DNA of 64,000 bases from Microcoleus vaginatus PCC 9802 (GTDB lineage: Bacteria; Cyanobacteriota; Cyanobacteriia; Cyanobacteriales; Microcoleaceae): contig CP031740.1 of assembly GCA_022701275.1 (NCBI GenBank), positions 569,001-633,000 on the forward strand. The letters run 5' to 3'. The first letter of the stretch is position 1, and the number at the start of each line of letters is the position of its first letter. Shown piece by piece: positions 6,482 to 21,502 of the stretch. Under the pieces are notes generated by a model. The model was not told where the DNA came from. It made no database searches and saw nothing but the letters and a program-made list of their open reading frames with translations. The translations under genes and the position numbers were made by a program.

Positions 6482-6897
6482 GGCGCGGGGGAAAAGTCAA
6501 TGCGTTCGGCGTGTCCCCAGAACGCTTCTAAATTGTAGAACTCCCGCTCTTGAGGCTTCAAAATGTGAATGATCGCGTCGCCGTAGTCCATGACGACCCA
6601 ACTAGCGTCTGATAGTCCTTGTGTACGCAGCGGCAAGCGTTGCCACTCTTCTTCCACTTGGTCTGCTATCGCTTGGGAGATGGCTCGTACCTGCACATTA
6701 GAAAATCCCGTGATTATCGCAAAGTAGTCTGCCAAAAAGCATACTTCTGACACCCGGAGCAATACAATATCAACGGCTTTGCGGTCATCGGCTGCTTGGG
6801 CAACGGTCATGATCAGGCCGCGGGCTTCGTCTGGGGATGTGCTGTGCGTTGCTGTAGACTGGGCCCTGGAGTATTCGAGTTGAGTTAGATCTGACAT
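6478..6897 (-). CDS. rsfS: Ribosome silencing factor RsfS (Iojap family)
   Basis: 139 residues. RsfS binds ribosomal protein uL14 of the 50S subunit and blocks subunit joining when nutrients are scarce. The conserved core is clear: DDRKAVDIVLLRVSEV, DYFAIITGFSNVQVRAI, WVVMDYGDAIIHIL and REFYNLEAFWG, with the usual acidic C-terminal end. It follows yqeK with a gap of about 140 bp and overlaps the CGLD27 gene. The yqeK-rsfS neighbourhood is a widespread bacterial arrangement. Confidence 0.95.
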   Translation of the reverse strand: MSDLTQLEYSRAQSTATHSTSPDEARGLIMTVAQAADDRKAVDIVLLRVSEVCFLADYFAIITGFSNVQVRAISQAIADQVEEEWQRLPLRTQGLSDASWVVMDYGDAIIHILKPQEREFYNLEAFWGHAERIDFSPAP

Positions 6898-7035
6898 TCA
6901 GTGTTTAAGTTCCTAATTGATAGGGGTTGGGGGGAATGGGTGCGCTTTCGCGATCGGTTGTTGGCAGTTTGAGCCTGGAAATAGGAGTTAGCTTGAAGCC
7001 AAAAGTAAGGACAGAATTTCTGGTAAATTTTACTT

Positions 7036-7668
7036 TTAACTTGTAATTTGTTCGAGCGACTTTTCTGTCGAATTTCCTGTTTCCGGCGATCGAGCCATTT
7101 GCAGCGCCCAATTCCGCGTAAGTACGGTGCGGGGGTGGATGTAGCAGCGAGTTTCTAGCAAATATTTAAGAGAATAATCGCTAGTTTGCCACACGGCTGC
7201 ATAAAGATTTTGCAAGCTTGCCTCGCGCAGTGCTTCTAGTTCGGCTGTTTTGCCACGGCTCGGCTCTATGGTATCTGCTATGAATACGGTACAACTGAGC
7301 TGACTCATGTTTGGTCGGCCAAGGGTGTGATTGGCGATTGCGTCCAAAATTTCTTGATCGACCACCCGGAATTCGTCTCTGGCGACGATCGCGCTCGCGT
7401 CTGCGTGCAGCAAATGCGGGTTTGCTTCCAATACTGAGTCTAACTCTAAACCTTCCGCCCTTGCCATTTGCAGCAGCAGTTGAGGTTTGAAGTATTTTGC
7501 CAAATCGTGCAACAAACCGGCCGATCGGGCTTTTGCTTCGTCGAGGCCGTAATGGCGAGCCAAGTCACCTGCTGTCTGTTCGACTCCGAGGATGTGTTTG
7601 ATGCGAGCAGCAGGAACGCGCTCAGAGAGCCAAGCTAGGACGATTTCGCGCGCGGGTGCAAGTGTCAA
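7036..7668 (-). CDS. yqeK: YqeK, HD-domain Ap4A hydrolase
   Basis: 210 residues. YqeK enzymes hydrolyse diadenosine tetraphosphate symmetrically to ADP. HD-superfamily metal ligands are visible: RIKHILGVEQTA (His), AGLLHDLAKYF (HD), a DASAIVARDEF stretch and AIANHTLG (His), then FIADTIEPSR (Asp). The only start giving a full N-terminus is a TTG at 7668. The C-terminal 15-20 residues extend beyond the usual family end. Part of an operon with rsfS. Confidence 0.9.
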   Translation of the reverse strand: MTLAPAREIVLAWLSERVPAARIKHILGVEQTAGDLARHYGLDEAKARSAGLLHDLAKYFKPQLLLQMARAEGLELDSVLEANPHLLHADASAIVARDEFRVVDQEILDAIANHTLGRPNMSQLSCTVFIADTIEPSRGKTAELEALREASLQNLYAAVWQTSDYSLKYLLETRCYIHPRTVLTRNWALQMARSPETGNSTEKSLEQITS

Positions 7669-7859
7669 ATATTAACTCCGAAATTGTGTGATCTACTATT
7701 TTTATTTTAGCGTTTTGTTTCGATCGGCTGCTGCGTCGTCTGACAGGGGTGCGGTGACATCTGGGATGGGGAGGGGCGAAGGGGGCGATCGCATCAACAC
7801 ACCTCTCTCTGCTAGCTAGTTTCACAGTTCACCCTTAAAAGCTCAGTCAATAATTTACT

Positions 7860-10856
7860 TCATTCTAGAACATCCACCTCATCATTCAATCCGAGTTCTT
7901 GCAGCGCAATCTTAGTCTCATCCCGCCTTTGCTGAGACACCTCACCTTCGATAGAAACTTCTATTTTCACTGTGAGCTTAACATTTTTGTCACTGGCAAA
8001 TTTACTCAGAACTTTTGTATAAAAATTCATCCACTTCTGAGGACTAATTTCACTAATCCATCTCAATCCTTTAGGTGGAAGTGGGGTGGTTGGGTGGTCT
8101 GGTAATTGATAAATAGTAGCATTTTCTTTCGCTCTGACACCATTAGAAGATTTTACGGCAAATTCAGCAATAGCACTGATTGTTTCTACTGTTGCTGTCA
8201 CAGTGAAATTTCCCTCATTTTCTCCACCTGTGAGTAGGCCATTGGGTTCAATATTACCGCCTGTAGTAGTCCACTGTATTTCACCAATAGCAATTTCTTT
8301 GTCATATTGATCGCGTCCCCGTGCGATAAAAGTTTGCTTTTTACCCGGTTCGAGTTGCACTTTGGGGGGGGAAATTATCAACGCGCTCAACTTTGGGGGA
8401 TCGGTGATACGTTGCAGGTAAGCGGCGGCTACCTCTGATTTAATGATAAACAAATCGTCTGAAATTTCGATTTGGCTGGCTGTTAAATCGGTTTTTAACT
8501 CGAACGGTTCGTATCGATCGCCTGATGCTTTGCCAACTAATGCTAAAGTACCATCTTTGACACCGCGAGCGATCGCCTCTTTCACCGCATCCCCTTTCAA
8601 AAGTCGCGGAAACAAAGGTGAAGCAAAGAAGACATCTCGCACAGCCTTGGTACTCCACTCCTGGAAAGCACCAGACCAATTGCGAACCAAAAACCGAGGA
8701 CTCACCGCATCTTCCACATCCCCATCCAGACGCAACCGATTGATAATTAAGTCTACAATTGATTTAGCAGAACTCGACGTAACTAAACCCAAATCCACCA
8801 CCCGTAACTTATTATCTTTCCCTAACAACGCCACGTATTTATAAGCGCGCCATACGGTTTCAATCAAATCGCGCTGAGCCTTTTTCAGGTTTTCAGATAA
8901 TTGCTTTTTCTGCACGTCATCTAAATTGGTTTCCTCATCCCGAATGTCTTCCCAGGATAGCATCTTGCGGGCTTCTTCGCGCAATTGAACATCAGAATCG
9001 GCGATCGCAAAAATTAGCGCACTCTTAAACGTTCTCGCTGACGCACCAGACTCGCGAATCATTGACTCGATCAAATTTAGGGTACTCTCATCCTGTTTGG
9101 AATGGGTGGGAGACATCACCGCTAAAGTCACCACAGCTTGATTGGGAAGATTGTTAGGTTGTTCGGGAAAACAAATAACCTGAATTCCCTGATTAATGGC
9201 AAATAGCTTGTGAATCTCATTGAGAATTCGCTCATCAATGCGATGCCCTTGCACGTTAGCGCGGCGGTCTGCTAGAATTTTGTTGAGGTTTGGATAGAGA
9301 CTAAATCGATACTTAGTTTGCCCGACAGTTAAGTAATAGCAATCGCTAGTTAGAGATTCCAAAACCGTTTCTACATTGCCAATATCTACATTTGGCTCAC
9401 CTACAGCCAGTCGAATTTCTGGGACAGTTGCTTCTACGCGAGTGCAGCCACCATTGGATTCAAAAAAGATCGCAGTCGTCACTTTCCGATGCAGTCGTGA
9501 TTTCTTAATATCTTCCGTAGCTTCCGCATCAAGACGAATGGCGTGAGAGTCTTTTTTGCCGCAAATATCAGTTGTCACTGGCCCTTCTAGGCGATCGTTT
9601 CCAAGTTGATCGAATACGGCGGCTCGAAATGATAGGTCATCTAGGGGTGCAGTTCCTAATCCAATTAGGGCATCGCGATGGTTGCCTTTATAACCTTCTT
9701 GGTAGGCAATAGACACCCACAAAGCTAAGAGTCGGAGGACACCTCGGGTGCGTTGAAATCGAGGCAAAGCCTGCCATTTACGCTCGAATACCGATAGCAC
9801 TGTGGGATGAAAAGGGTAAGTCGCGACAAAGGCTTCCCGCGCACTTTCAATAGGGAAACTAGGCAACTGTTGCTTGTGTTCAATCACCCAATCTGCATAC
9901 TCGTTACAGGTAGCAACAGCATCCTTGGGAAGCATGATTTTACCTTCAGGGGTGACAGCATTAGCAGTCCATTCAAATAAGCGACGGCGGATAATTTCTG
10001 ATGTCTCAGATTCGGCGGACATCATAATTGCCTTACCCAATCTGTCGAGCACTTTTTTGAAGCGCTGTTCGTCGGCTTCGTCAGCAGCAGTATATTCCAT
10101 CTCCGAGGCGGGAATAGATACTACTAAAACGACATTTTTTTCACCTCTGGCAGTTTCTGAAAGTGCTTGAATGAAGTTATAAAGCCGATCGCCATAACCT
10201 TTGTTGCGATAGGTGCTGGCGTAGTTGATAATCTCATCCAACAAAATCAAACAGGGCTTATCTTTGGGGAGAAACTTGCGGATGACATCGCCCTTGGGTT
10301 CGATAAATTGATTTTCGTGTTCGGCGACTATATTAAAAGCGGCTTCTCCTCCTAATTGATAGGCAATTTCACCCCAAGGTGTTTTGCGTAGAGGAGTGCC
10401 ATCATCGCCACCGCGCCCGGTGATGGAGTCAAATTCAGTGCCGACAAATACGGCTACAGCCGCTTCGGGGATGGCGGAAATGGCTGCTTGCTTTAAGATT
10501 TTATCGACTCCCGTCCATTTGTTAGCAGCAGCGCCGTGTTTTGCTAAGTGATAGAGTAGAGTTAATGCGTGAGTTTTGCCACCGCCAAATTGGGTAGAAA
10601 GATTAAATATAGCTGAGGTTTCTGTGGTTTCACCAGAGAGTCGCCGGACTACCTGAGCGGCGAGGTATGTTAAATATTTGGTAAGATAAGTGCGATCGAA
10701 AAAGCGATCGGGTTCTTGATAATCTGCGGGCGCTCGTTTGTCTCGCACTTGGTCGAGATGTACCGCAAATTCGGAAGCATCTAAAGGTTTGCCTTCGCGC
10801 AAATCTTCGCGGGGGATAAGTCCTTCAATTTTATACCAAGGTTTGATCGTTGCCAT
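7860..10856 (-). CDS. DUF499 family AAA ATPase with Big-like domain
   Basis: 998 residues, cytosolic, last gene of the four-gene cassette. It starts MATIKPWYKIEGLIPREDLR with the strong site AGGAGAA 6 nt before the ATG. The P-loop is QFGGGKTHAL (GGGKTH 91-96) and the Walker B is CLILLDEIINY (around 207). This is the DUF499/COG1483 ATPase class, related in role to the BrxC/PglY ATPases of BREX. About residues 826-900 form an immunoglobulin-like bacterial Big_2-type domain (VQLEPGKKQTFIARGRDQYD ... GGNIEPNGLLTGG), unusual in an intracellular ATPase. The C-terminus has a short basic/acidic domain (WMNFYTKVLSKFAS ... IEVSIEG). Eleven bases separate it from the 195-aa gene upstream. It probably energises DNA modification or restriction by the cassette; that role is inference. 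Confidence 0.85.
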   Translation of the reverse strand: MATIKPWYKIEGLIPREDLREGKPLDASEFAVHLDQVRDKRAPADYQEPDRFFDRTYLTKYLTYLAAQVVRRLSGETTETSAIFNLSTQFGGGKTHALTLLYHLAKHGAAANKWTGVDKILKQAAISAIPEAAVAVFVGTEFDSITGRGGDDGTPLRKTPWGEIAYQLGGEAAFNIVAEHENQFIEPKGDVIRKFLPKDKPCLILLDEIINYASTYRNKGYGDRLYNFIQALSETARGEKNVVLVVSIPASEMEYTAADEADEQRFKKVLDRLGKAIMMSAESETSEIIRRRLFEWTANAVTPEGKIMLPKDAVATCNEYADWVIEHKQQLPSFPIESAREAFVATYPFHPTVLSVFERKWQALPRFQRTRGVLRLLALWVSIAYQEGYKGNHRDALIGLGTAPLDDLSFRAAVFDQLGNDRLEGPVTTDICGKKDSHAIRLDAEATEDIKKSRLHRKVTTAIFFESNGGCTRVEATVPEIRLAVGEPNVDIGNVETVLESLTSDCYYLTVGQTKYRFSLYPNLNKILADRRANVQGHRIDERILNEIHKLFAINQGIQVICFPEQPNNLPNQAVVTLAVMSPTHSKQDESTLNLIESMIRESGASARTFKSALIFAIADSDVQLREEARKMLSWEDIRDEETNLDDVQKKQLSENLKKAQRDLIETVWRAYKYVALLGKDNKLRVVDLGLVTSSSAKSIVDLIINRLRLDGDVEDAVSPRFLVRNWSGAFQEWSTKAVRDVFFASPLFPRLLKGDAVKEAIARGVKDGTLALVGKASGDRYEPFELKTDLTASQIEISDDLFIIKSEVAAAYLQRITDPPKLSALIISPPKVQLEPGKKQTFIARGRDQYDKEIAIGEIQWTTTGGNIEPNGLLTGGENEGNFTVTATVETISAIAEFAVKSSNGVRAKENATIYQLPDHPTTPLPPKGLRWISEISPQKWMNFYTKVLSKFASDKNVKLTVKIEVSIEGEVSQQRRDETKIALQELGLNDEVDVLE

Positions 10857-10867
10857 TGCTTATTCTC

Positions 10868-11455
10868 CTAAGAGATTATCGTAAATTTTCCGGCATTTAT
10901 TTCCAACTCCCACCATTTAAAAAAGCCGTAGGGAAAGGTAGCAGAATCGTCTCGGCTACCTACGACTACAAGGGTTTCACCTCCGAGTTTCCTCCTGTCG
11001 GCTAGACTCATGGCTTGCAGCACTTCATCACGCAGGAACGCAATCACAGAAGCGCGTTCCTCTGCACTGCGGCGGTAGCAAAATACTATTCGTAAATCTG
11101 CACGCACGCATAGCACTTTCCATAGTGAATAGGCACTGCGGTTAATATCGCTACTGTTCTCTAATTCCATCACGGCGATAGGGAACCGCCAGCGAGTATT
11201 ACCAGGAGCAAAGGACATTACATCTAAAGCTAGGTATTCACTGGTTGAAACAGGAAACAAGCCTAGTGAATTTCCTCTAGCGGAAGACTGCCAACCCATC
11301 GCTGTAGAGGTGGCGACAACGGTAGTGGTTAAAGCTGTTGTCCATTTAGTAAGTTGTCCATTTAAGGCAGCTTGTTTTAAAGGGTCAGCATTTTCAGGTT
11401 GTTGCAGGGTTTGCCAGAATTTAGTTTGCCACTGGTAGGCGATATTTTGCATCAT
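10868..11455 (-). CDS. 195-aa cassette protein, possible PD-(D/E)XK-like nuclease
   Basis: No family is recognised with certainty. Around residues 72-101 the pattern EYLALDVMSF followed by PIAVMELENSS resembles the strand-turn-strand of a PD-(D/E)XK fold, with Asp and an ExE in place of ExK; an AYSLWKVL helix and RIVFCYRR strand follow, as in such folds. Its start codon overlaps the stop of the methyltransferase (TAATG), so it is translationally coupled to it, and it sits 11 bp before the DUF499 ATPase. It fills the position of the small accessory protein in related methylase/ATPase/helicase clusters. Function inferred only from position and a weak motif. Confidence 0.7.
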   Translation of the reverse strand: MMQNIAYQWQTKFWQTLQQPENADPLKQAALNGQLTKWTTALTTTVVATSTAMGWQSSARGNSLGLFPVSTSEYLALDVMSFAPGNTRWRFPIAVMELENSSDINRSAYSLWKVLCVRADLRIVFCYRRSAEERASVIAFLRDEVLQAMSLADRRKLGGETLVVVGSRDDSATFPYGFFKWWELEINAGKFTIIS

Positions 11456-14400
11456 TAGAACCCCAACCCTTTTTTGCGAGCTAAAACTCCATCCACCCAG
11501 CGCTTTTCATCAGTGGCGGTGGGATACAGGGCTGAGAGGGACTGGGCTAATGTCCAGAAGCGCTTGTCACTTCCCACGCCGTCATCGACTAAGAAGCGTT
11601 TGAGGGCTTCGCTGCGTCCAGCGGCAAATAAAATCATGGTTTGGTGGATGCGATCGAGTACAGTTTTACCTTGATTCTCAATATTGGTATCGCCCCAATC
11701 TTCTGACACTTCTTCAGTAGTTTCTGTATCAAAGAGACTCAATTGCTTGTGCTCTTTTTTGGGGCGCTTGACTGGGGCTTTGCCCGCGTCTTTGCCCAAC
11801 AGATATGGCGATCGCTCCGATACTGGTAGCAGTCGCGCTTGGTCGCCCTTGACTTGTACTAAACTGGTGAGGTTTTCCAAGTTAGCACCAAGTCCCTGAG
11901 CAATCTTGCGGGCGGCATCATATTCGAGGCTAAAACCTGTGATTTTTGCTTTTTTGCCAGTGCTTTCGTCGTCATCATCGCTAACATCTTCTTCCTCTTG
12001 TGGAACCGGCATGTTGCCTGTTTTCCCATCACCTTGTGGAACAGGCATCTTGCCTGTTTCTCCACCACCTGATGAAAGTGTCCACAACCACATGGCAGTT
12101 AATCGAGCATCTTCTTCAAAGCTGGAAGTATCTGCTTCTTTGAAAATAGTGCTGAGGGCTTCTTTGGAAATCGCAGCCCAGACATATTCGAGATATTCGC
12201 GCAGGGTGACAACTTCGCCGCTTGCTTTTTCAACGCTGGAATAACGGGAAAAGATTTCTAAAGCCGGGCCAAGGCAGGCAAAAATGGCATCGGCACCGAC
12301 TACGCCTTCACTGGCGAGTCTGGGCATCCAGTCGTGAATACGTTGGGGGAGTTCTTGGAGTACATCCCGCCAGTCACCAATATCGTTAGTGTTGCGGGGA
12401 CGGCAAACGAGATGGATAGATGAAGCGAGGGCAGCAGATTCTTGGGCGCGCTGCCGACTTGGACGCTCAGTGTCAATTGGCCACGAGCCAGTAATTGTCC
12501 ACCCAGAAGCGATCGCACTGTCGAGCAGAGCTTCCCAACTTTTCATACCTTTATGGGCAAAAATTATGACTGAAAGTCCATTGGGTTTAGTAATCCGCCG
12601 TGCTTGTCTAAAAGCTAAAAGCATTTGTGAAGAGAACCAAATATGATCCTTGGGTCCTCGACCATCTATCGAGGCGGCTGGGTTTACTACAATTTCTTCT
12701 TGCTTTGGACTTTTGCTCTGTACTGACTCAAGAGAAAAAAGTGTCTTTGGATCGAGCGTTGCTCTCTTTAGCCAGCATAGAAAAAGGTCTGACAAATCTG
12801 AATAAGCAAACGCATCGTAGTATGGAGGGTCTGTAGCTACCAAGTGGGCACTGTCATCAGGAAGTGGGTGCATTTGAGCTGGAGCTTGCATAGCTATGCC
12901 AGTATGACTAATTGCCATAGAAACATGGTTTATTGCTCGAACAACCCAATCAACTTGACCCGACCAACTGCCTCCAGCATCAGCAAATGGGACTGCCTCT
13001 ACAAAATCCCAGACCATCGGCAATCGATTCTGACCTCGATTAGCGCCGACTACTGTATCAGCCCATGTAGACAGACTAGAATTCAAATCCTGTAGTCTTC
13101 CAAAGGCTAACAACAAACATTGATGAACGACTATAGATTCCGTAGTTTCCTCAGTTTCCTCCAAATTACGAATAATGCTGGCAATAGTAGCGAGCGCAAG
13201 CTTTTGTCTTTTTGTGTGCAAATCACCAAAAGTTTGCATCCCATAATTCTGTACACGAAAACCCAATGTGCCATTTGGTGGTAAGGGTTCATCGGGTGCT
13301 AACGAAAGTATTGTATTGGAGTGGCGCTGCTGTTTCAGGCGAGCTTCTACCTTGTCTACAATTTCATAGTCAGATTTTGTCGGAGTCCTATAGATACGCT
13401 TTCCTGCTTCATCATTGGCAACAATTGCTAGAAGGAATCCATCATTGGCACCACCTCGCTGTTTGGATAGTTGCCTTCGCACTGACTGCACGGGAGTTGT
13501 GAAGCCGCAACAAGGGCAGGATACGGCTCCTCGACGTACAGTAGCTGTAGTAACAAGATTGGTTATATTACCTGAAATTACTTCACATACTGGTATTTCG
13601 CTACCTGCACTGTATTTGATACGAACACCTACTTTGCATGATGAGCGTTTTGTAAGCCAAAAGGTACGAGCAAGTGGTACTTTTAGCCCACAACCGGGCC
13701 CCTCACAAACAATCGTTCTCGCCCACAAATAAGCAATCGGTGTACTTCCATCAGCATCTTTCGGATAAAAATCAGCTAATTCTTTCTCTGCTTCTTCCTT
13801 AACCCACTTTCCCCACTTCCGCACTTCATCCGCTAACTTTTGCCCATATTTAGGAATATATTCCAACACCACTTTATTCAACAAAACCGCCACCGGATTC
13901 AAGTCAGAAGCAAAAGCATCTGCCCCCACCCGCAGCGCTTCCAAAGGAATCGCACCACCCCCAGCAAAGGGGTCAACAACTAGGGGACGAGTTCCGGGAA
14001 CGCCGCCTAAAGCTTCATGGGCTGCTTGAGTTAAAGCGCGACTGGTTTCTAAATAGTCTTGCTGTGTGGAATTATCCCAATTAGCAAAATCTGCAATAAA
14101 ATCCAATAACCGATCGCGGAGAATATTGAAATGCTGGGGATTATTAGGATCTAACTGATTTTCTGTTTTGGCTAAAAACTTCCACTCACTCCAATTTTCC
14201 GTAGAACAATGATTAGCTAAATCCTTATCCGTCACCACTTTCTTAGCAAAATCCTTAATAATGCTGGCTGCTTTATCCCGAAATTCTTGAGGGCAGAGTT
14301 CATCAACAGGATCGATCCACAAGGAAGCACAAATCACCGCCCGACACGCGGCCAAAGGTCGCCTCGCCCACCAAATATGCAGGGTGGAAATATGCCCGTG

Positions 14401-14496
14401 ACGGATAGATTTTTCCCGTCTGGCGTGGGCGGAAATCCGCTTGATGGGGAGGTCAACTTCGATGAGGCGTTTGGGATAATTAGTTTTGTTACTCAC
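11455..14496 (-). CDS. DUF1156 adenine-specific DNA methyltransferase with zinc ribbons
   Basis: 1013 residues. The DUF1156 domain is at the N-terminus (LIEVDLPIKRISAHARREKS, then LHIWWARRPLAACRA). SAM-binding motif I is VVDPFAGGGAIP (DPFAGGG 175-181) and catalytic motif IV is ATDPPYYDAF (DPPY from 556), typical of N6-adenine or N4-cytosine amino-methyltransferases. Cysteine pairs CEGPGCG and CPCCG form zinc ribbons between them (COG1743 type). Its GTG start overlaps the helicase stop (GTGA), and its stop overlaps the next ATG. Around residues 813-840 lies a low-complexity insert with two GK/GN-MPVPQ units derived from an intergenic repeat family. It probably marks host DNA in a defence cassette, like PglXI of BREX type 3. 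Confidence 0.9.
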   Translation of the reverse strand: MSNKTNYPKRLIEVDLPIKRISAHARREKSIRHGHISTLHIWWARRPLAACRAVICASLWIDPVDELCPQEFRDKAASIIKDFAKKVVTDKDLANHCSTENWSEWKFLAKTENQLDPNNPQHFNILRDRLLDFIADFANWDNSTQQDYLETSRALTQAAHEALGGVPGTRPLVVDPFAGGGAIPLEALRVGADAFASDLNPVAVLLNKVVLEYIPKYGQKLADEVRKWGKWVKEEAEKELADFYPKDADGSTPIAYLWARTIVCEGPGCGLKVPLARTFWLTKRSSCKVGVRIKYSAGSEIPVCEVISGNITNLVTTATVRRGAVSCPCCGFTTPVQSVRRQLSKQRGGANDGFLLAIVANDEAGKRIYRTPTKSDYEIVDKVEARLKQQRHSNTILSLAPDEPLPPNGTLGFRVQNYGMQTFGDLHTKRQKLALATIASIIRNLEETEETTESIVVHQCLLLAFGRLQDLNSSLSTWADTVVGANRGQNRLPMVWDFVEAVPFADAGGSWSGQVDWVVRAINHVSMAISHTGIAMQAPAQMHPLPDDSAHLVATDPPYYDAFAYSDLSDLFLCWLKRATLDPKTLFSLESVQSKSPKQEEIVVNPAASIDGRGPKDHIWFSSQMLLAFRQARRITKPNGLSVIIFAHKGMKSWEALLDSAIASGWTITGSWPIDTERPSRQRAQESAALASSIHLVCRPRNTNDIGDWRDVLQELPQRIHDWMPRLASEGVVGADAIFACLGPALEIFSRYSSVEKASGEVVTLREYLEYVWAAISKEALSTIFKEADTSSFEEDARLTAMWLWTLSSGGGETGKMPVPQGDGKTGNMPVPQEEEDVSDDDDESTGKKAKITGFSLEYDAARKIAQGLGANLENLTSLVQVKGDQARLLPVSERSPYLLGKDAGKAPVKRPKKEHKQLSLFDTETTEEVSEDWGDTNIENQGKTVLDRIHQTMILFAAGRSEALKRFLVDDGVGSDKRFWTLAQSLSALYPTATDEKRWVDGVLARKKGLGF
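11997..12060. repeat. Two copies of the GGAACAGGCATCTTGCCTG repeat inside a gene
   Basis: TTGTGGAACCGGCATGTTGC and TTGTGGAACAGGCATCTTGC, each followed by CTGTTT, lie about 35 bp apart within the DUF1156 gene and are read through in frame as MPVPQ motifs. The second copy matches the repeat of the tandem array at 42038-42382. Confidence 0.85.
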
Positions 14497-17400
14497 TTGC
14501 TGGCCTCCAAAATTTTCTCTGCATCAACATGATAATGTTCAATCTTCACTAACGGTTCCCACCCCAACTGCACGGGGTCTTGTATTGGATGCACTTGTGG
14601 AGTAGAAGCGCAGTTAAAGATTACATACAACCAGTAGTCTTTTTTTAAGCGTTCTGCTGTCTTGTATTCGTTGCTGGTGAGGGCTACTTCACCCACCCGC
14701 GATCGCCCTTTAACCTCAATAAACCTCACCGCAATCGCAGTGTTTGGATCTTCTGGATGAGGTTTGCGGGAGATTAAATCAAAGCCGCGATTCTCCTTTT
14801 CTACACTCACCACCAGCCAGCCCCTCGCATTTTCATAGGCAATAACTGCCTCGACTGCAATTCGCTCAATTTCGCGATCGCTAACCATAGCTGCCATTTC
14901 AGGGGATGTGCGTTCTGGATGAGGAAGTACCCAAGCCCGTCCGTGATGTTGAATATCGGCGATCGTGCAACTGCGCTCTTTTTCCAGTTCTTCCCGCCGC
15001 GTTTCCAATCGCCCGTTTAACTCAAACAATCGGTCTTCCATTTGCTTGATGCGGCCGTCTAGTCCAGATTCCTTGGCACCAGATTCTTGTCGCGAAATTA
15101 ACTCAGCAAACTGACACTGCACTTTATCAATAATTGCAAAAAAACTAATTTCCATGTGGTCGGAAATAGTCTTAACTTCCTGCTGTCGTTGAGTCCGAAT
15201 TTCTGTCAAAAAACGATTCAATTCTTGTTCGATCAACGCTTGTTCTGTTTGGTCGCGACTGGGTAAATCTGCATCGTTTGGCAAACCATCAACCAAATTG
15301 GTACTATCAGTTACTGGCACCAAATCTAAAAACAAAGTCGGCTGTCGCACGGTCATTGTCCCGTCGATTTCCGTCTGCACCACATAGACACGTTCGTGCA
15401 GCTTGTTACCGCGTCCATCGGCGATGGCCGCCGAAAACACATCCAATCTCGCAGGTCGATCGCGATGCAAATCGAAAAATAGTGCCCCGTGGCGCAAATC
15501 ATCCTGTACCCGCGCTAGCACATCTTCCCGCACGCACTCAAACAGCGGATGTCCGGGTGTCACCCATTCCAGCGTTGGGTCATCTGTCAACTTATGTTTA
15601 TCAAACGTAATCTTTTTGTATTCATGGCCCAATTTGCCAAAGCGGGTTTCCAAACGTTCCCCGATCGGCCACAGAGTACGCGGTACTCGCCCAATGCGGT
15701 ACACCTTCTGATGCTGGCGCGTTTCCTTGGGGTGAATCCCCGAAATCGGGGCCGCTTGCACAAAAAAGTCATCAATCACTTCTGGCACTAAACGTCGCTC
15801 TTTTGCTTCTGCTGATTTACCAATAATCGCACTTAAGTTCAGTTCCCGCTTGGCTAATCCTTCTAAAGCGGAATTGGTGAGGCGGCGGAATCGATCGGTG
15901 TCCACTTGCTCGACAATGCGGTTCTTAATCACATCTTCCGTCAAGTTGTGAGCGTACATCTCCCGAATCATCCGTTCTAGCTGATTGGCCGGAAAAATAT
16001 CGCCCAAAACATTAAACACTTTGCCAGTGCGTTCTGGATCGATGTCAATCTCGATCGCCCGGATGCGCTCAAACAACTTCCACAACACCCGTCCTTCGCG
16101 GGTATTCGTCGAAACAAAGTTAAAAATCAGACAATCCTTATCCTGACCGTAACGGTGGATGCGACCCATCCGCTGTTCCAAGCGCACCGGATTCCAGGGA
16201 ATATCATAATTAATCAGAAACCAGCAGAATTGCAAGTTAATACCCTCCCCCGCCGCTTCCGTCGCCACCAATACCTGACAATCTTCCCGAAACTCGCGTT
16301 CAGAATAAATTCGGGTATTGGGCGTATCCCTGTCTCCAATTTTCATCCCCCCGTGAATCTGAGTCACCGATAGTCCCCACTCCCGCAGCTTACCCACCAA
16401 ATAATCCAAGGTGTCTTTGTGCTCGGTGAAAAGCAGCAGTTTCATCAGCGGGTCTTGGAATATGCCTTTCTGGGTAATAGCTTCTTTCAGCTTCACCAGT
16501 TTCGATTCAACTTCTCGTTTTTCCAACGTCCGCGCTTGGTCGATCAGTTTGTTCAACTGATAGATTTCTTGTTGCAATGCTACCGGGTCAACTGAAGCGA
16601 CAAGTCCTTCCAAATCTCCCAGAATTTTTTCCTGTTCTGCTTCAGTCAGTTCATCAAAATCATCTGGAACTTTCTTCGCAATCTGTTCGGCCCGGTAAGC
16701 CTCTGGGTCTTCCAATCTCCGTTGGCGTTTATCGCGCATTCGTTCTAAACTTCGCCGCACTGCGTAGACACTAGACGCGAAACGACGTTGCAACATTGCC
16801 ATCGTAAAACCCAATGCCCGACCGCGGGCGGAATCATCGGCCGATGCTTTGATTGACTGGTCTTCTACATATTTAGTCAAGTCGTCATAGAAATCCAATT
16901 CTTCGTCATCAATTTGAAAGTCGATGGTTTCAACTTTGCGATTAGTAAATAGCTTTTTGGCTTGACCGGTCTCTGTATCGGGGAAAGTAACGAGAGCTTC
17001 TTTGGTCCGCCGCAGATAAAACGGAGCATTATTCCGACGCATTGCTTCTTCTAAACTCGTAACATCACCATAAACATCGCGGTCTAGAAGTTCTAGGAAT
17101 AAACAAAAGTTTTTGGGGTCGCCTTTATGAGGCGTGGCGGTCATTAATAAGTAGTGGTCGGTGAGCTTGGAGAGTTCTTCACCGAGTTTGTAAGCCAAGG
17201 TTTTATCATCGGAACTATAGGCGCTCATCTTGTGGGCTTCATCCACAATGATTAAGTCCCAATGACTCCGCAGGAGACTATTTTTGGCATCTTCAATGCG
17301 CGAAACCCACGATATTGAGGTGATGACTTGTTTCTTTTCTTTCCAAGGGTTAGAGCCGTAATTGGCCCGCAGGACATCGCCCCGAATCACCTCAAAATCT

Positions 17401-17921
17401 TCGCGGAATTTGTCTTTGAGTTCCCGCTGCCATTGAAAGGTGAGGTTGGCGGGGGTGACAATTAAGGTACGTCTGACTAAGCCTCGGACTTTGAGTTCTT
17501 TGAGTAGCAGTCCGGCCATGATGGTTTTACCAGCACCGGGGTCATCGGCTAGCAGGAAGCGGATGCGGGGTTGTTTGAGAAAGTATTCGTAGACGGCTTC
17601 TAGTTGGTGGGGCAGTGGGTCTACATGGGCGATCGCCAGGGCAAAATAAGGGTCATATTCGTAGGCTAAACCCAAGCGCAGGGCTTCCACGCCGAGGCGA
17701 AAATGCAGGGCGTTGCCGTCAAATGGTTCTTGTTCTGGGGTAGCTTCTAGTTGAGCCAAATGTTCTTTGGACAGAATTGACTCGTAGACTTGGTTGGTAT
17801 TGATTCCTTTGCCGATGAGTTTAATAGCATCTCCCATCGGCACTGCCACAATTACTTTTACAGGTTCTGGGAACAGGGAGCCTCGCAGAATTACATGGGA
17901 CTTCATTTGCTCTACTTGCAT
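14493..17921 (-). CDS. SNF2-family helicase with C-terminal DUF3883 domain
   Basis: 1142 residues, first gene of the cassette. ATPase motifs are intact: LADDPGAGKTIMAG (126-133 P-loop core), IIVDEAHKM (DEAH 227-230), LLMTATPHKG, and motif VI GRIHRYGQ (586-593). A coiled region (about 905-965, many Glu/Arg/Gln) follows. The last ~120 residues are a DUF3883 domain (FIEVKGRSRVGEVALTSNEY) with the E-x-K of a PD-(D/E)XK-like fold, often found on restriction and defence helicases. Family members translocate on double-stranded DNA. It overlaps the methyltransferase gene by a GTGA junction. It resembles BrxHII of BREX type 3 or DISARM helicases in composition; the exact class needs a profile search. 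Confidence 0.9.
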   Translation of the reverse strand: MQVEQMKSHVILRGSLFPEPVKVIVAVPMGDAIKLIGKGINTNQVYESILSKEHLAQLEATPEQEPFDGNALHFRLGVEALRLGLAYEYDPYFALAIAHVDPLPHQLEAVYEYFLKQPRIRFLLADDPGAGKTIMAGLLLKELKVRGLVRRTLIVTPANLTFQWQRELKDKFREDFEVIRGDVLRANYGSNPWKEKKQVITSISWVSRIEDAKNSLLRSHWDLIIVDEAHKMSAYSSDDKTLAYKLGEELSKLTDHYLLMTATPHKGDPKNFCLFLELLDRDVYGDVTSLEEAMRRNNAPFYLRRTKEALVTFPDTETGQAKKLFTNRKVETIDFQIDDEELDFYDDLTKYVEDQSIKASADDSARGRALGFTMAMLQRRFASSVYAVRRSLERMRDKRQRRLEDPEAYRAEQIAKKVPDDFDELTEAEQEKILGDLEGLVASVDPVALQQEIYQLNKLIDQARTLEKREVESKLVKLKEAITQKGIFQDPLMKLLLFTEHKDTLDYLVGKLREWGLSVTQIHGGMKIGDRDTPNTRIYSEREFREDCQVLVATEAAGEGINLQFCWFLINYDIPWNPVRLEQRMGRIHRYGQDKDCLIFNFVSTNTREGRVLWKLFERIRAIEIDIDPERTGKVFNVLGDIFPANQLERMIREMYAHNLTEDVIKNRIVEQVDTDRFRRLTNSALEGLAKRELNLSAIIGKSAEAKERRLVPEVIDDFFVQAAPISGIHPKETRQHQKVYRIGRVPRTLWPIGERLETRFGKLGHEYKKITFDKHKLTDDPTLEWVTPGHPLFECVREDVLARVQDDLRHGALFFDLHRDRPARLDVFSAAIADGRGNKLHERVYVVQTEIDGTMTVRQPTLFLDLVPVTDSTNLVDGLPNDADLPSRDQTEQALIEQELNRFLTEIRTQRQQEVKTISDHMEISFFAIIDKVQCQFAELISRQESGAKESGLDGRIKQMEDRLFELNGRLETRREELEKERSCTIADIQHHGRAWVLPHPERTSPEMAAMVSDREIERIAVEAVIAYENARGWLVVSVEKENRGFDLISRKPHPEDPNTAIAVRFIEVKGRSRVGEVALTSNEYKTAERLKKDYWLYVIFNCASTPQVHPIQDPVQLGWEPLVKIEHYHVDAEKILEASK

Positions 17922-18088
17922 TCGCTTTCCATTCCCAAAACAGGATTTTATTTAATAGGATATAGCTGCTAACTTTACTTTTTTATGTATAAAACAATAT
18001 AATTAACTTGCTGTTTTACACCCATCTTACTAATTTTATCTTGTCCCCTGGATCTATTTCATTTACCGGAGCGATCGCCCAACTGCGA

Positions 18089-19518: not shown

Positions 19519-19956
19519 TCAGGTAATGTTTTTTCGCATTACCAGGCAGTTGCGGCGATCGTCGGTACGGATATAGCGAAGATCGTCTGTGAGCTTGTAC
19601 ATGAACACCAGTCCCCTTTCTCCTTCTCTGTCCAAAGGATCGCGCTGCTCTTGCATGATCGAGTGCAGCTTTGCTTCTAAGTTGAAGGGTTGACCCCTGT
19701 CCCAAATCCTAATTTCTAAATAATCGGCAAACACTTTTACCTCAATGTCTATGGGCGTCGCCGGGGGCAAGTTCTGGTGAGCGTGGCGGACAGCGTTTGT
19801 AAAGCCTTCGTTGATTATCAGTCGGCACTGCCACCAGAAATCCGCTGGTATCATGGGCAAAACGATATTCTCCAACCATTCCAAAATGGATGTTAAAGCA
19901 TTCAGGTCTGTTTCAACCTGCAGGTGCCACTCGGCCTTTGGTTGCTTGTCTTTCAT
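19519..19956 (-). CDS. Anti-sigma-factor-like Ser/Thr protein kinase (HATPase_c)
   Basis: 145 residues from ATG 19956, preceded by GGGGGAAGAAAG; an upstream in-frame ATG at 20025 would add 23 Gly-rich residues and is less likely. It is a single GHKL ATPase domain of the RsbW/SpoIIAB type: N-box IINEGFTNAVRHAH, G1-like IRIWDRGQPF and G2 GERGLVFMYKLTDDLRYI. Such kinases phosphorylate a serine on a STAS protein and, unphosphorylated, bind a sigma factor or another target. A STAS domain is encoded about 550 bp upstream on the same strand, fused to a sugar transferase, so the two are likely partners. Confidence 0.88.
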   Translation of the reverse strand: MKDKQPKAEWHLQVETDLNALTSILEWLENIVLPMIPADFWWQCRLIINEGFTNAVRHAHQNLPPATPIDIEVKVFADYLEIRIWDRGQPFNLEAKLHSIMQEQRDPLDREGERGLVFMYKLTDDLRYIRTDDRRNCLVMRKNIT

Positions 19957-20025
19957 CTTTCTTCCCCCTGGTCGGCCCCCACCACCGCTGTACTCAGCGG
20001 CGGAGGGAGAGAAAAAGGAGGGCAA

Positions 20026-20503: not shown

Positions 20504-21502
20504 CTACACAGCGCCACTATTTTTGTTAAACAGGACTGTTACAGTTTTGACAATTAGTTTGAGGTCATACACCAGGCTCCAGTTTTGTTGGTATTTTAAA
20601 TCTAAACGGATGACATCTTCAAAATCGCGGACTTGAGAGCGACCGTTGACTTGCCATTCGCCTGTCATCCCTGGTTTGACATCCAAACGCTGCCACTGAG
20701 GGACTTCGTAACGCTCAACTTCGTCTGGGGTAGGCGGTCTAGTGCCAACTAGACTCATTTCGCCTTTGAGCACGTTCCAAAACTGCGGCAGTTCGTCGAG
20801 GCTGGTTTTGCGTAAGATGCGCCCGACTTTGGTAATCCGCGGGTCGTTGTCATTTTTGAAAAATGCGCCAGAAGCCTGGTTTTTGATTTGGGCTTTCATG
20901 GCTTCGGCGTTGGTACACATCGATCGAAATTTCCAAATCCGAAATTGTCTGCCCATCCAGCCACAGCGGGTTTGACCGAAAAATATCGGGCCTGGATCGT
21001 TGATAGTGATAGCTGCAGCTATGGGTACGAGCAAAATTCCTGTAATTATCAAACCGACGATTGCCCCAACGATATCTATCAGCCGCTTCACCCACGATTG
21101 CACTGAGGGGTGCGTCATCGGTAGCTGATTGTCCGACGGGTTGTTCTCTGTGGGAGTTGAGGTTGCAGAGGGCTGCTCGATCGTCAGCACTTGATCTAGG
21201 CTGGTGAGAGCAAATACTGCCATCACCTGCGGCTTGAGGCTTCGGAGCACCAAGTCGCTATCCCGCTGTTTGGCAAATTTCAGATTGCTGACTAAAGCAC
21301 CGATCCCGCTACTGTCGATGAATGTCGTCTGACTGAAGTCTAGGACAATCTTGCTGGGAACGGTGCTGCCCGAAAAAAGTTGCTGGCAGGTTGTCTTGAA
21401 GTTTACGGCTTCAAGTACGCTCAAGCGCACGGGTATGTGAACTGAGGGAATCTCGTCCGAGTACGTTACCCGAAAATCTGCCTCTGGGGTTTGACTGACC
21501 AT
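20504..21502 (-). CDS. STAS domain fused to exopolysaccharide sugar transferase
   Basis: 332 residues. Residues 10-110 form a STAS (anti-sigma factor antagonist) domain with VLDFSQTTFIDSSGIGAL; Ser64 or Ser65 of the DSSG motif is the usual phosphorylation site. After a Ser/Thr/Pro/Asn linker, residues about 135-332 are a bacterial sugar transferase (PF02397): one membrane helix (VGAIVGLIITGILLVPIAAA), GQTRCGWMGRQFRIWKFRSM, DELPQFWNVLKGEMSLVGTR and KPGMTGEWQVNGRS. Such enzymes transfer the first sugar phosphate onto undecaprenyl phosphate to begin capsule or exopolysaccharide assembly. The fusion suggests that the enzyme's activity or location is switched by phosphorylation, possibly by the kinase encoded at 19519. 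Confidence 0.93.
   Translation of the reverse strand: MVSQTPEADFRVTYSDEIPSVHIPVRLSVLEAVNFKTTCQQLFSGSTVPSKIVLDFSQTTFIDSSGIGALVSNLKFAKQRDSDLVLRSLKPQVMAVFALTSLDQVLTIEQPSATSTPTENNPSDNQLPMTHPSVQSWVKRLIDIVGAIVGLIITGILLVPIAAAITINDPGPIFFGQTRCGWMGRQFRIWKFRSMCTNAEAMKAQIKNQASGAFFKNDNDPRITKVGRILRKTSLDELPQFWNVLKGEMSLVGTRPPTPDEVERYEVPQWQRLDVKPGMTGEWQVNGRSQVRDFEDVIRLDLKYQQNWSLVYDLKLIVKTVTVLFNKNSGAV

Follow-up and report, generated by a model that had tools for sequence, protein, structure and literature searches.

We analyzed a four-gene operon of Microcoleus vaginatus PCC 9802, a cyanobacterium whose genome is a single contig of 6.70 Mb, within a window of 64,000 nucleotides (GenBank assembly GCA_022701275.1, contig CP031740.1, positions 569,001 to 633,000 of the forward strand); the window denotes this whole stretch, and coordinates refer to it. 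Three large genes are hmaA, hmaB and hmaC of the Hma system, and the fourth, p195, encodes an unnamed 195-aa protein whose pattern of divergence is best explained by recent transfer as a single gene between Hma operons. A first-pass annotation had described four minus-strand open reading frames (ORFs) in 7860-17921, and these were found at exactly those coordinates. The start/stop overlaps it reported were borne out as well (GTGA at 14496-14493, TAATG at 11455 and an 11-nt gap at 10867-10857), as were its flanks, yqeK and a glycosyltransferase gene, seen here as an HD-domain protein (yqeK-like, beside RsfS) and a group-1 glycosyltransferase. The features are as follows.

14493..17921, minus strand: hmaA, 1142 aa, SNF2-family helicase/translocase with C-terminal NOV_C (DUF3883); PADLOC HmaA, Pfam, GAGKT, DEAH
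14586..14870, minus strand: HmaA residues 1018-1112, NOV_C nuclease-like domain with D...EVK intact; Pfam NOV_C 1.1e-20
11455..14496, minus strand: hmaB, 1013 aa, GTG start, DUF1156 DNA amino-methyltransferase; PADLOC HmaB, DPFAGGG, DPPY
12397..13746, minus strand: HmaB residues ~251-700, swapped stretch in a pair of Microcoleus strains, likely for target recognition
10868..11455, minus strand: p195, unnamed, 195 aa, PD-(D/E)XK-like in its motif and in the predicted order of its strands
11159..11239, minus strand: p195 residues 73-99, containing invariant E73, D78 and E97-L-E99
10857..10867, minus strand: p195-hmaC junction, 11 nt, with AGGAG ahead of the hmaC ATG, overlapping the p195 stop
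7860..10856, minus strand: hmaC, 998 aa, DUF499 AAA+ ATPase, GGGKT at 91, LLDE at 205; PADLOC, Pfam
8154..8411, minus strand: HmaC residues 816-901, Ig-like (Big_2-like) domain, varying among relatives
7792..18087, no strand: insertion separating yqeK from the glycosyltransferase gene, approximate limits from flank spacing in relatives

All three Hma profiles of PADLOC were matched over most of their length within this one operon. HmaA scored 638 bits (5.4e-192) against 347 for BrxHI|BrxHII, and HmaB 394 bits (2.8e-118) against 41 for PglXI, whereas HmaC (8.5e-120, 400 bits) further matched DUF499 and SspC models and none of the PADLOC BrxC models; DrmD, BrxHI|BrxHII and PglXI were the weaker PADLOC scores in the operon. 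Pfam recognized SNF2, Helicase_C and NOV_C in HmaA, DUF1156 with weak methylase matches in HmaB, and DUF499 in HmaC, with no Pfam match to HEPN in the latter. The nuclease-like residues of NOV_C, D1048 and E1069-V-K1071, were kept in every HmaA sequence aligned (26 of 26). The DPPY and DPFAGGG motifs of the window HmaB fit an amino-methyltransferase, and DPPY sets it apart from the 5-methylcytosine (m5C) enzyme predicted for HmaB in PMC8565338, the paper that named Hma and counted 1,638 operons in 26 phyla. The Ig-like domain of HmaC lies under the Pfam cutoff (Big_2, E 0.024) and has low identity in Nostoc relatives; as a separate observation, it resembles tandem repeats in another long open frame of its own genome (G000:C1:4092177-4092926, E 1e-15).

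The possible novelty of the three large genes, raised in the first-pass annotation, is refuted because the set matches a described system, both in PADLOC and in print. Its suggestion that this could be a defence or modification system in its own right, akin to bacteriophage exclusion (BREX) type 3, was right by the same identification; calling the system little-studied was fair, although it had already been named Hma in PMC8565338 and corresponds to the Type-1 DUF499 BREX-related class of PMC12839542. The families said to be shared with BREX type 3 are indeed shared for the helicase (BrxHII) and the methylase (PglXI) but not for the ATPase. PglZ, noted as absent from the window, had no match (PF08665) anywhere in the 6.7-Mb genome, in a search that was positive in 2 of 14 control genomes, and neither BrxA nor BrxF appeared among 12 window proteins scanned with Pfam or in the PADLOC matches of the four operon proteins, no search having been aimed at either. 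The three-gene core is therefore a known system, and its unnamed part is p195, which the first reading had passed over. Earlier notes on this gene set occur in PMC3710099 and PMC7641849. PMC12839542 (2026) treats the set as DUF499-centred and BREX-related, with a Type-1 composed of the ATPase, an N6-methylase and a helicase bearing an additional active C-terminal restriction endonuclease; it reports the additional helicase domain in 79% of Type-1 taxa, describes the three-gene system as common without PglZ, and considers the core kin of Type-3 BREX. With NOV_C and its D...EVK, the window helicase carries the additional C-terminal PD-(D/E)XK domain of Type-1. TUDOR at the helicase N-terminus and RRM at the ATPase C-terminus are further, fold-level marks of that type. 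The Type-2 features (DUF3780, an HKD nuclease on the helicase) had no Pfam match in the four operon proteins, to which this search was confined, and the PglZ gene that characterizes Type-3 BREX-related systems is missing from the genome. BREX itself is recognized by PglZ and BrxC, of which the genome lacks the former and the operon ATPase matches no model of the latter. Judged by its domains, the window operon thus appears to fit the Type-1 DUF499 BREX-related class.

To follow p195 relative to its operon, we compared the proportions of synonymous differences in 28 hand-picked pairs of the 136 possible among 17 loci. In nine pairs, namely the window and L005 (a Planktothrix plasmid) each against L008-L011 (Nostoc/Anabaena/Dolichospermum), together with window-L005, the values were 0.24-0.41 for p195 and 0.65-0.78 for HmaC residues 1-500. 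The two genes were closer to each other in the six pairs inside L008-L011 (p195 0.21-0.42 versus HmaC 0.33-0.53); among the 13 other pairs, the window and L007 gave 0.05 for p195 versus 0.14 for HmaC, and the other 12 differed by at most 0.16 in either direction. Synonymous divergence (dS) was mostly above 1 or saturated for HmaA against L008 and L009 and for HmaB against L008, L009 and L005. p195 is mostly 80-97% identical in DNA, dropping lower in single 30-nt windows, against mostly 63-80% for the adjoining parts of hmaB and hmaC; the edges of the similarity are not sharp, and the final 45 nt of hmaB are well conserved too. Moreover, L005 groups with Nostocales rows in the p195 tree (support 80/84) and with the window in the HmaC tree. 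One genome, G920, holds one Hma locus with p195 and an 86-89% identical sister cleanly without it (L193, L194). Across the HmaC tree (25 p195 rows, 15 others and 4 outgroup rows), presence of the gene changes 10 times, 9 of them forced by well-supported branches, in what is a quick tree with long-branch warnings. A tblastn search (E 0.01) of 26 loci lacking the gene, flank-only and outgroup loci included, detected no p195 remnants, and no convincing flanking repeats able to explain its movement were seen. Recent single-gene transfer of p195 into the slot before hmaC, between anciently diverged cyanobacterial Hma operons, best explains these comparisons. A stable ancestral partnership everywhere was considered and is unsupported in cyanobacteria by the HmaC tree and the pair comparisons.

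The distribution of p195 ties it to hmaC. The relatives set had the gene in 4 of 59 genomes and the phylum sample in 3 of 386 (own genome counted in both). One of 72,556 plasmid records had it, within a Hma operon, and the genome-contig collection yielded 24 loci, while a scan of viral contigs found none. Its hosts span cyanobacteria, Methanothrix/Methanosaeta, Planctomycetota, Verrucomicrobiota, Acidobacteriota, Chloroflexota, Armatimonadota and Betaproteobacteria. hmaC or its remnant followed p195 in 22 of the 24 scan hits; the contigs of the remaining two stop at or in p195, one of them (L022) with hmaA and hmaB upstream. Because this p195-hmaC neighbourhood is found again across phyla, the gene arrangement is not due to chance. 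No p195 was found near 78 loci of more distant HmaC relatives (of 207 loci). Of the 24 loci in which the distance from p195 to hmaC was measured (the window, L005, L068, L200 and L201 together with 19 scan hits; L022 stops before hmaC, and the broken or partial L021 and L028-L030 were left out), 22 have no more than 52 nt, the exceptions being L016 (111 nt) and L011 (3.3 kb), whereas the gap to hmaB ranged from -4 to 2572 nt. Since the hmaC gap is short and the hmaB gap wide-ranging, p195 is coupled to hmaC and not to hmaB. The window p195 matched nothing in Pfam, PADLOC including its HEC and PDC models (E up to 0.01), NCBIfam or PHROGs, and nothing meaningful among PDB sequences; our literature searches tied no paper to it, though word searches miss unnamed genes and p195 could be listed elsewhere without a name.

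The position before hmaC proved to be a slot with varied contents. We delimited a close HmaC clade at about 47% identity or more, fragments included, the rest reaching at most 38% over long matches. Searching by HmaC returned 21 cyanobacterial loci, of which G902, G877 and G820 were not assessable (contig ends or truncation). p195 was present in 5 of the 18 counted: G000, G035, G049, G121 and one of the two loci in G920. Toxin-antitoxin-type or nuclease genes filled the slot in 9 of the 13 assessable loci lacking p195. Its contents were PIN in four loci (G101, G201, G136, G903), MNT in G109, MNT with BrnT in G158, HsdR_N/Uma2/PD_DExK in G295 and G900 (as scanned in L073, the matching plasmid copy), ParA with Schlafen in G086, and DUF6932 with HTH in G944; G870 has an hmaC locus with neither hmaB nor p195. 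Outside cyanobacteria, where most p195 loci were found via p195 itself, the Planctomycetota close-clade loci found via HmaC alone carried the gene in two of three cases (G1109, G997). In relatives, known embedded types occur between hmaA and hmaB, including HEC-04 (2.8e-51, L068) and HEC-01A/PDC-M07A-like ATPases; in the Planktothrix plasmid L005, an ATPase of the latter kind shares this gap (positions 6895-8914) with a 242-aa protein that had no match.

Several loci without p195 show decay: G101 has a broken hmaB, G944 a split one and G136 none. In L191 and L065 (by blastp of ORFs) and L076 (by annotation only), hmaC has no recognizable hmaB beside it, as if the Hma operon decays starting from its methylase. 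Short close-clade hmaC remnants in G048, G218 and G340, excluded from the 21-locus count, are signs of lost operons.

Within the p195 family, 34 positions were invariant in 26 sequences, E73, D78, E97 and E99 among them, and the ratio of nonsynonymous to synonymous divergence (dN/dS) was 0.05-0.22 in seven of eight pairs, dS being saturated in the eighth; p195 is under purifying selection. A fast-evolving recognition gene, considered as a candidate role, is not favoured given this selection and the invariant positions. Two AlphaFold2 models (mean pLDDT 85) show by DSSP the order helix-strand-strand-strand-helix-strand, with D78 just ahead of strand 2 and E97-L-E99 at the end of strand 3. In these predicted models, strand order and residue positions resemble the PD-(D/E)XK arrangement with E replacing K. 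The active site of BamHI uses such an ExE. A fold search of BFVD placed a Mrr-type restriction endonuclease first, weakly (E 9.4e-3), followed by a handful of restriction-type nucleases and resolvases among matches that were mostly to different or unnamed proteins. From motif and model, the chance that p195 is a PD-(D/E)XK-type nuclease seems to us about even.

A second variable region lies within HmaB. L007, a metagenome-assembled genome of Microcoleus sp. whose contig matches that of the same-genus genome G024, provided a close comparison: HmaC is 96% and p195 98% identical to the window, and the p195-hmaC pair of L007 is 96-98% identical. HmaB identity, in the same comparison, is 95-96% at residues 112-250, 22-62% at 251-700, 84% at 701-750 and 90-100% past 750. 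The conserved parts have a dS of 0.07-0.15, whereas it runs from 1.69 up to saturation over 251-700 and is 1.04 over 701-750; the G024 contig stops inside hmaB, so that its HmaA is unseen. Likewise, the two Hma loci of G920 are 86-89% alike in DNA, the middle of hmaB excepted. The simplest reading of these alignments is that a target-recognition region was exchanged in place with no matching change in HmaC, and that HmaB probably carries the specificity. At 11997-12068, hmaB contains a 36-nt tandem repeat whose two similar translated stretches, each with MPVPQ, fall in a linker of poor conservation; it has the look of a dispersed repeat inserted into the reading frame.

Searching the yqeK protein over 27 same-genus genomes, own included, and comparing the loci with the window revealed that the operon is an insertion of ~10.3 kb. 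In three relatives the flanks are nearly joined, with 97 nt between matched flanks in G009 (L176), 454 in G013 (L160) and 884 in G016 (L163). G024 has the same operon at the same site, its hmaC adjoining yqeK on its contig, and G010 has hmaC (95%) there on a contig that stops at the hmaC start, leaving the p195 region outside. Since other ORFs occupy the position in three more relatives (L188, L189, L190), the site may be an insertion hotspot. An Rfam scan of window positions 1-30000 gave two tRNAs only, and promoter-like (20 versus 12.7 expected) and terminator-like sites (13 versus 12.3 expected) were not used as evidence. A STAS-bacterial sugar transferase fusion (20504-21502) adjoins an anti-sigma-type HATPase_c_2 kinase gene (19519-20025), and similar ORFs are present in the three same-genus relatives L188-L190.

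Collectively, we consider it probable that the locus is an intact Hma operon with restriction-modification-like defence activity in which p195 is an exchangeable, HmaC-linked accessory, most likely a nuclease. HmaB would mark self DNA by methylating adenines (or N4-cytosines) in a site that its central region determines; HmaC, an AAA+ ATPase, would assemble and gate the complex; and HmaA, a SNF2 translocase with a C-terminal PD-(D/E)XK domain, would attack unmarked DNA. The optional p195, encoded just upstream of hmaC, would be engaged through HmaC as an accessory effector, presumably by direct contact. The core of this reading, in which the methylase marks self, the ATPase assembles or recognizes and the helicase-nuclease restricts, is adopted from PMC12839542 and seems to us likely; what the locus adds is independent variation of the HmaB centre and of p195 relative to the remaining operon.

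Several observations weigh against the part assigned to p195. The loop with E73 has low model confidence, and PDB fold searches with both models returned no PD-(D/E)XK nuclease among the 50 matches listed for each; the best matches were acetyl-CoA carboxylase domains (E 7.6e-4 and TM-score 0.44 in the second search). Pfam restriction endonuclease families did not match any of 25 p195 members at E up to 10, the sole Pfam match in the family being MTBP_N in one member. The HmaA nuclease motif is intact with or without p195 (in 18 HmaA from p195 loci and 8 from loci lacking it), which also rejects the idea that p195 replaces a lost HmaA nuclease. p195 is not required, because it is absent from 13 of the 18 cyanobacterial loci and from one of the three in Planctomycetota, where G1103 (L122) has a split hmaC copy with 1.5 kb upstream and no p195; in the G920 sister locus and in G796, hmaB and hmaC are directly adjacent and the slot is empty. 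Finally, L029, whose contig stops in p195, has no Hma gene in the preceding 10 kb.

Some of these points suit a different role, in which p195 acts as an adaptor, either catalytically dead or never catalytic, and couples HmaC to HmaB or DNA as a subunit for assembly or regulation. Tight coupling to hmaC, a nuclease motif already supplied by HmaA, the lack of PD-(D/E)XK nucleases among the listed PDB matches, and a number of invariant positions that exceeds an active site, many of them aromatic or hydrophobic, speak for such a subunit; yet the four acidic residues at PD-(D/E)XK-like positions are all invariant, the slot otherwise holds mostly toxin-antitoxin-type or nuclease genes, and some Hma loci lack p195, so that we regard the adaptor as possible but doubtful. 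Separate recent transfer, the presence/absence pair in G920 and the HEC-type genes between hmaA and hmaB of related loci could instead mark p195 as an independent cargo defence gene that shelters in the operon and works alone. This we think unlikely, as no copy has been shown Hma-free: 22 of 24 scan hits precede hmaC or its remnant, the single plasmid copy lies in a Hma operon, the viral-contig scan was empty, and no HEC or PDC model matches.

Two further explanations concern the operon as a whole. An epigenetic or housekeeping methylation system with no defence role is highly improbable in view of the patchy insertion, the wide scattered distribution, the divergent HmaB centre in near-identical operons, the intact helicase-nuclease motifs and the slots holding toxin-antitoxin and nuclease genes. 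A reduced BREX type 3 that has lost PglZ, BrxA and BrxF, the other possibility in the first-pass annotation, draws on the families shared with BrxHII and PglXI and on the kinship of the core with Type-3 BREX stated in PMC12839542; we reject it as scarcely credible, since the Hma models win widely, the ATPase is a DUF499 protein matching no BrxC model, the genome has no PglZ, and the three-gene system is, according to the same paper, widespread without PglZ.

Returning to the preferred reading of an Hma operon with an exchangeable accessory, a bolder extension is tentative at best: Hma may be a chassis with a docking slot before its ATPase gene, and p195 may found a family of HmaC-activated PD-(D/E)XE (BamHI-like) nucleases, traded singly (as the comparisons in cyanobacteria show) and spread over bacteria and archaea, with HmaB specificity swappable separately. 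If true, two independent swap points would mean that Hma is reprogrammed both in what it recognizes and in what it does. Few candidate defence systems are as widespread as Hma (26 phyla, PMC8565338). A conserved ATPase partner outside the model libraries, natural operon pairs with or without it, and natural pairs that differ in the methylase middle bring two questions within reach of direct tests, namely whether the DUF499 ATPase takes plug-in effectors and which part sets target specificity.

Among known systems, DISARM class 1 has a similar SNF2 helicase (DrmD) but is rejected: NCBIfam DrmD scored 370.8 bits against a cutoff of 610, all NCBIfam antiphage and DrmD models stayed under their own cutoffs in the window operon, and there is no separate DrmA, DrmB or DrmC gene among the four. 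BREX type 3 is homologous in its helicase and methylase families, whereas the window lacks PglZ and has DUF499 in place of a BrxC-type ATPase. Hma as defined by PADLOC and PMC8565338 shares the HmaA helicase, HmaB methylase and HmaC ATPase; the window differs in its fourth gene, p195, outside the PADLOC models, and in the DPPY of HmaB as against the m5C prediction. The Type-1 DUF499 BREX-related systems of PMC12839542 are alike in the tripartite core without PglZ and in the helicase with its additional C-terminal PD-(D/E)XK, and differ from the window in the p195 ahead of the ATPase gene and the Ig-like domain near the HmaC C-terminal end. The HEC/PDC embedded defence genes (a preprint cited in PMC12111858 and PMC12988326) likewise sit among Hma genes and come and go singly, but their models do not match p195, of which no free-standing copy has been shown. 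Finally, the HEPN-DUF499 branch of Hma (Ava_2192 type, PMC3710099; Thermus plasmids, whose ATPases have about 27-28% identity) also has an effector-type module on the upstream side of its DUF499 ATPase; there the HEPN is fused and an RNase, whereas p195, in the equivalent place, is a separate protein with a different predicted fold.

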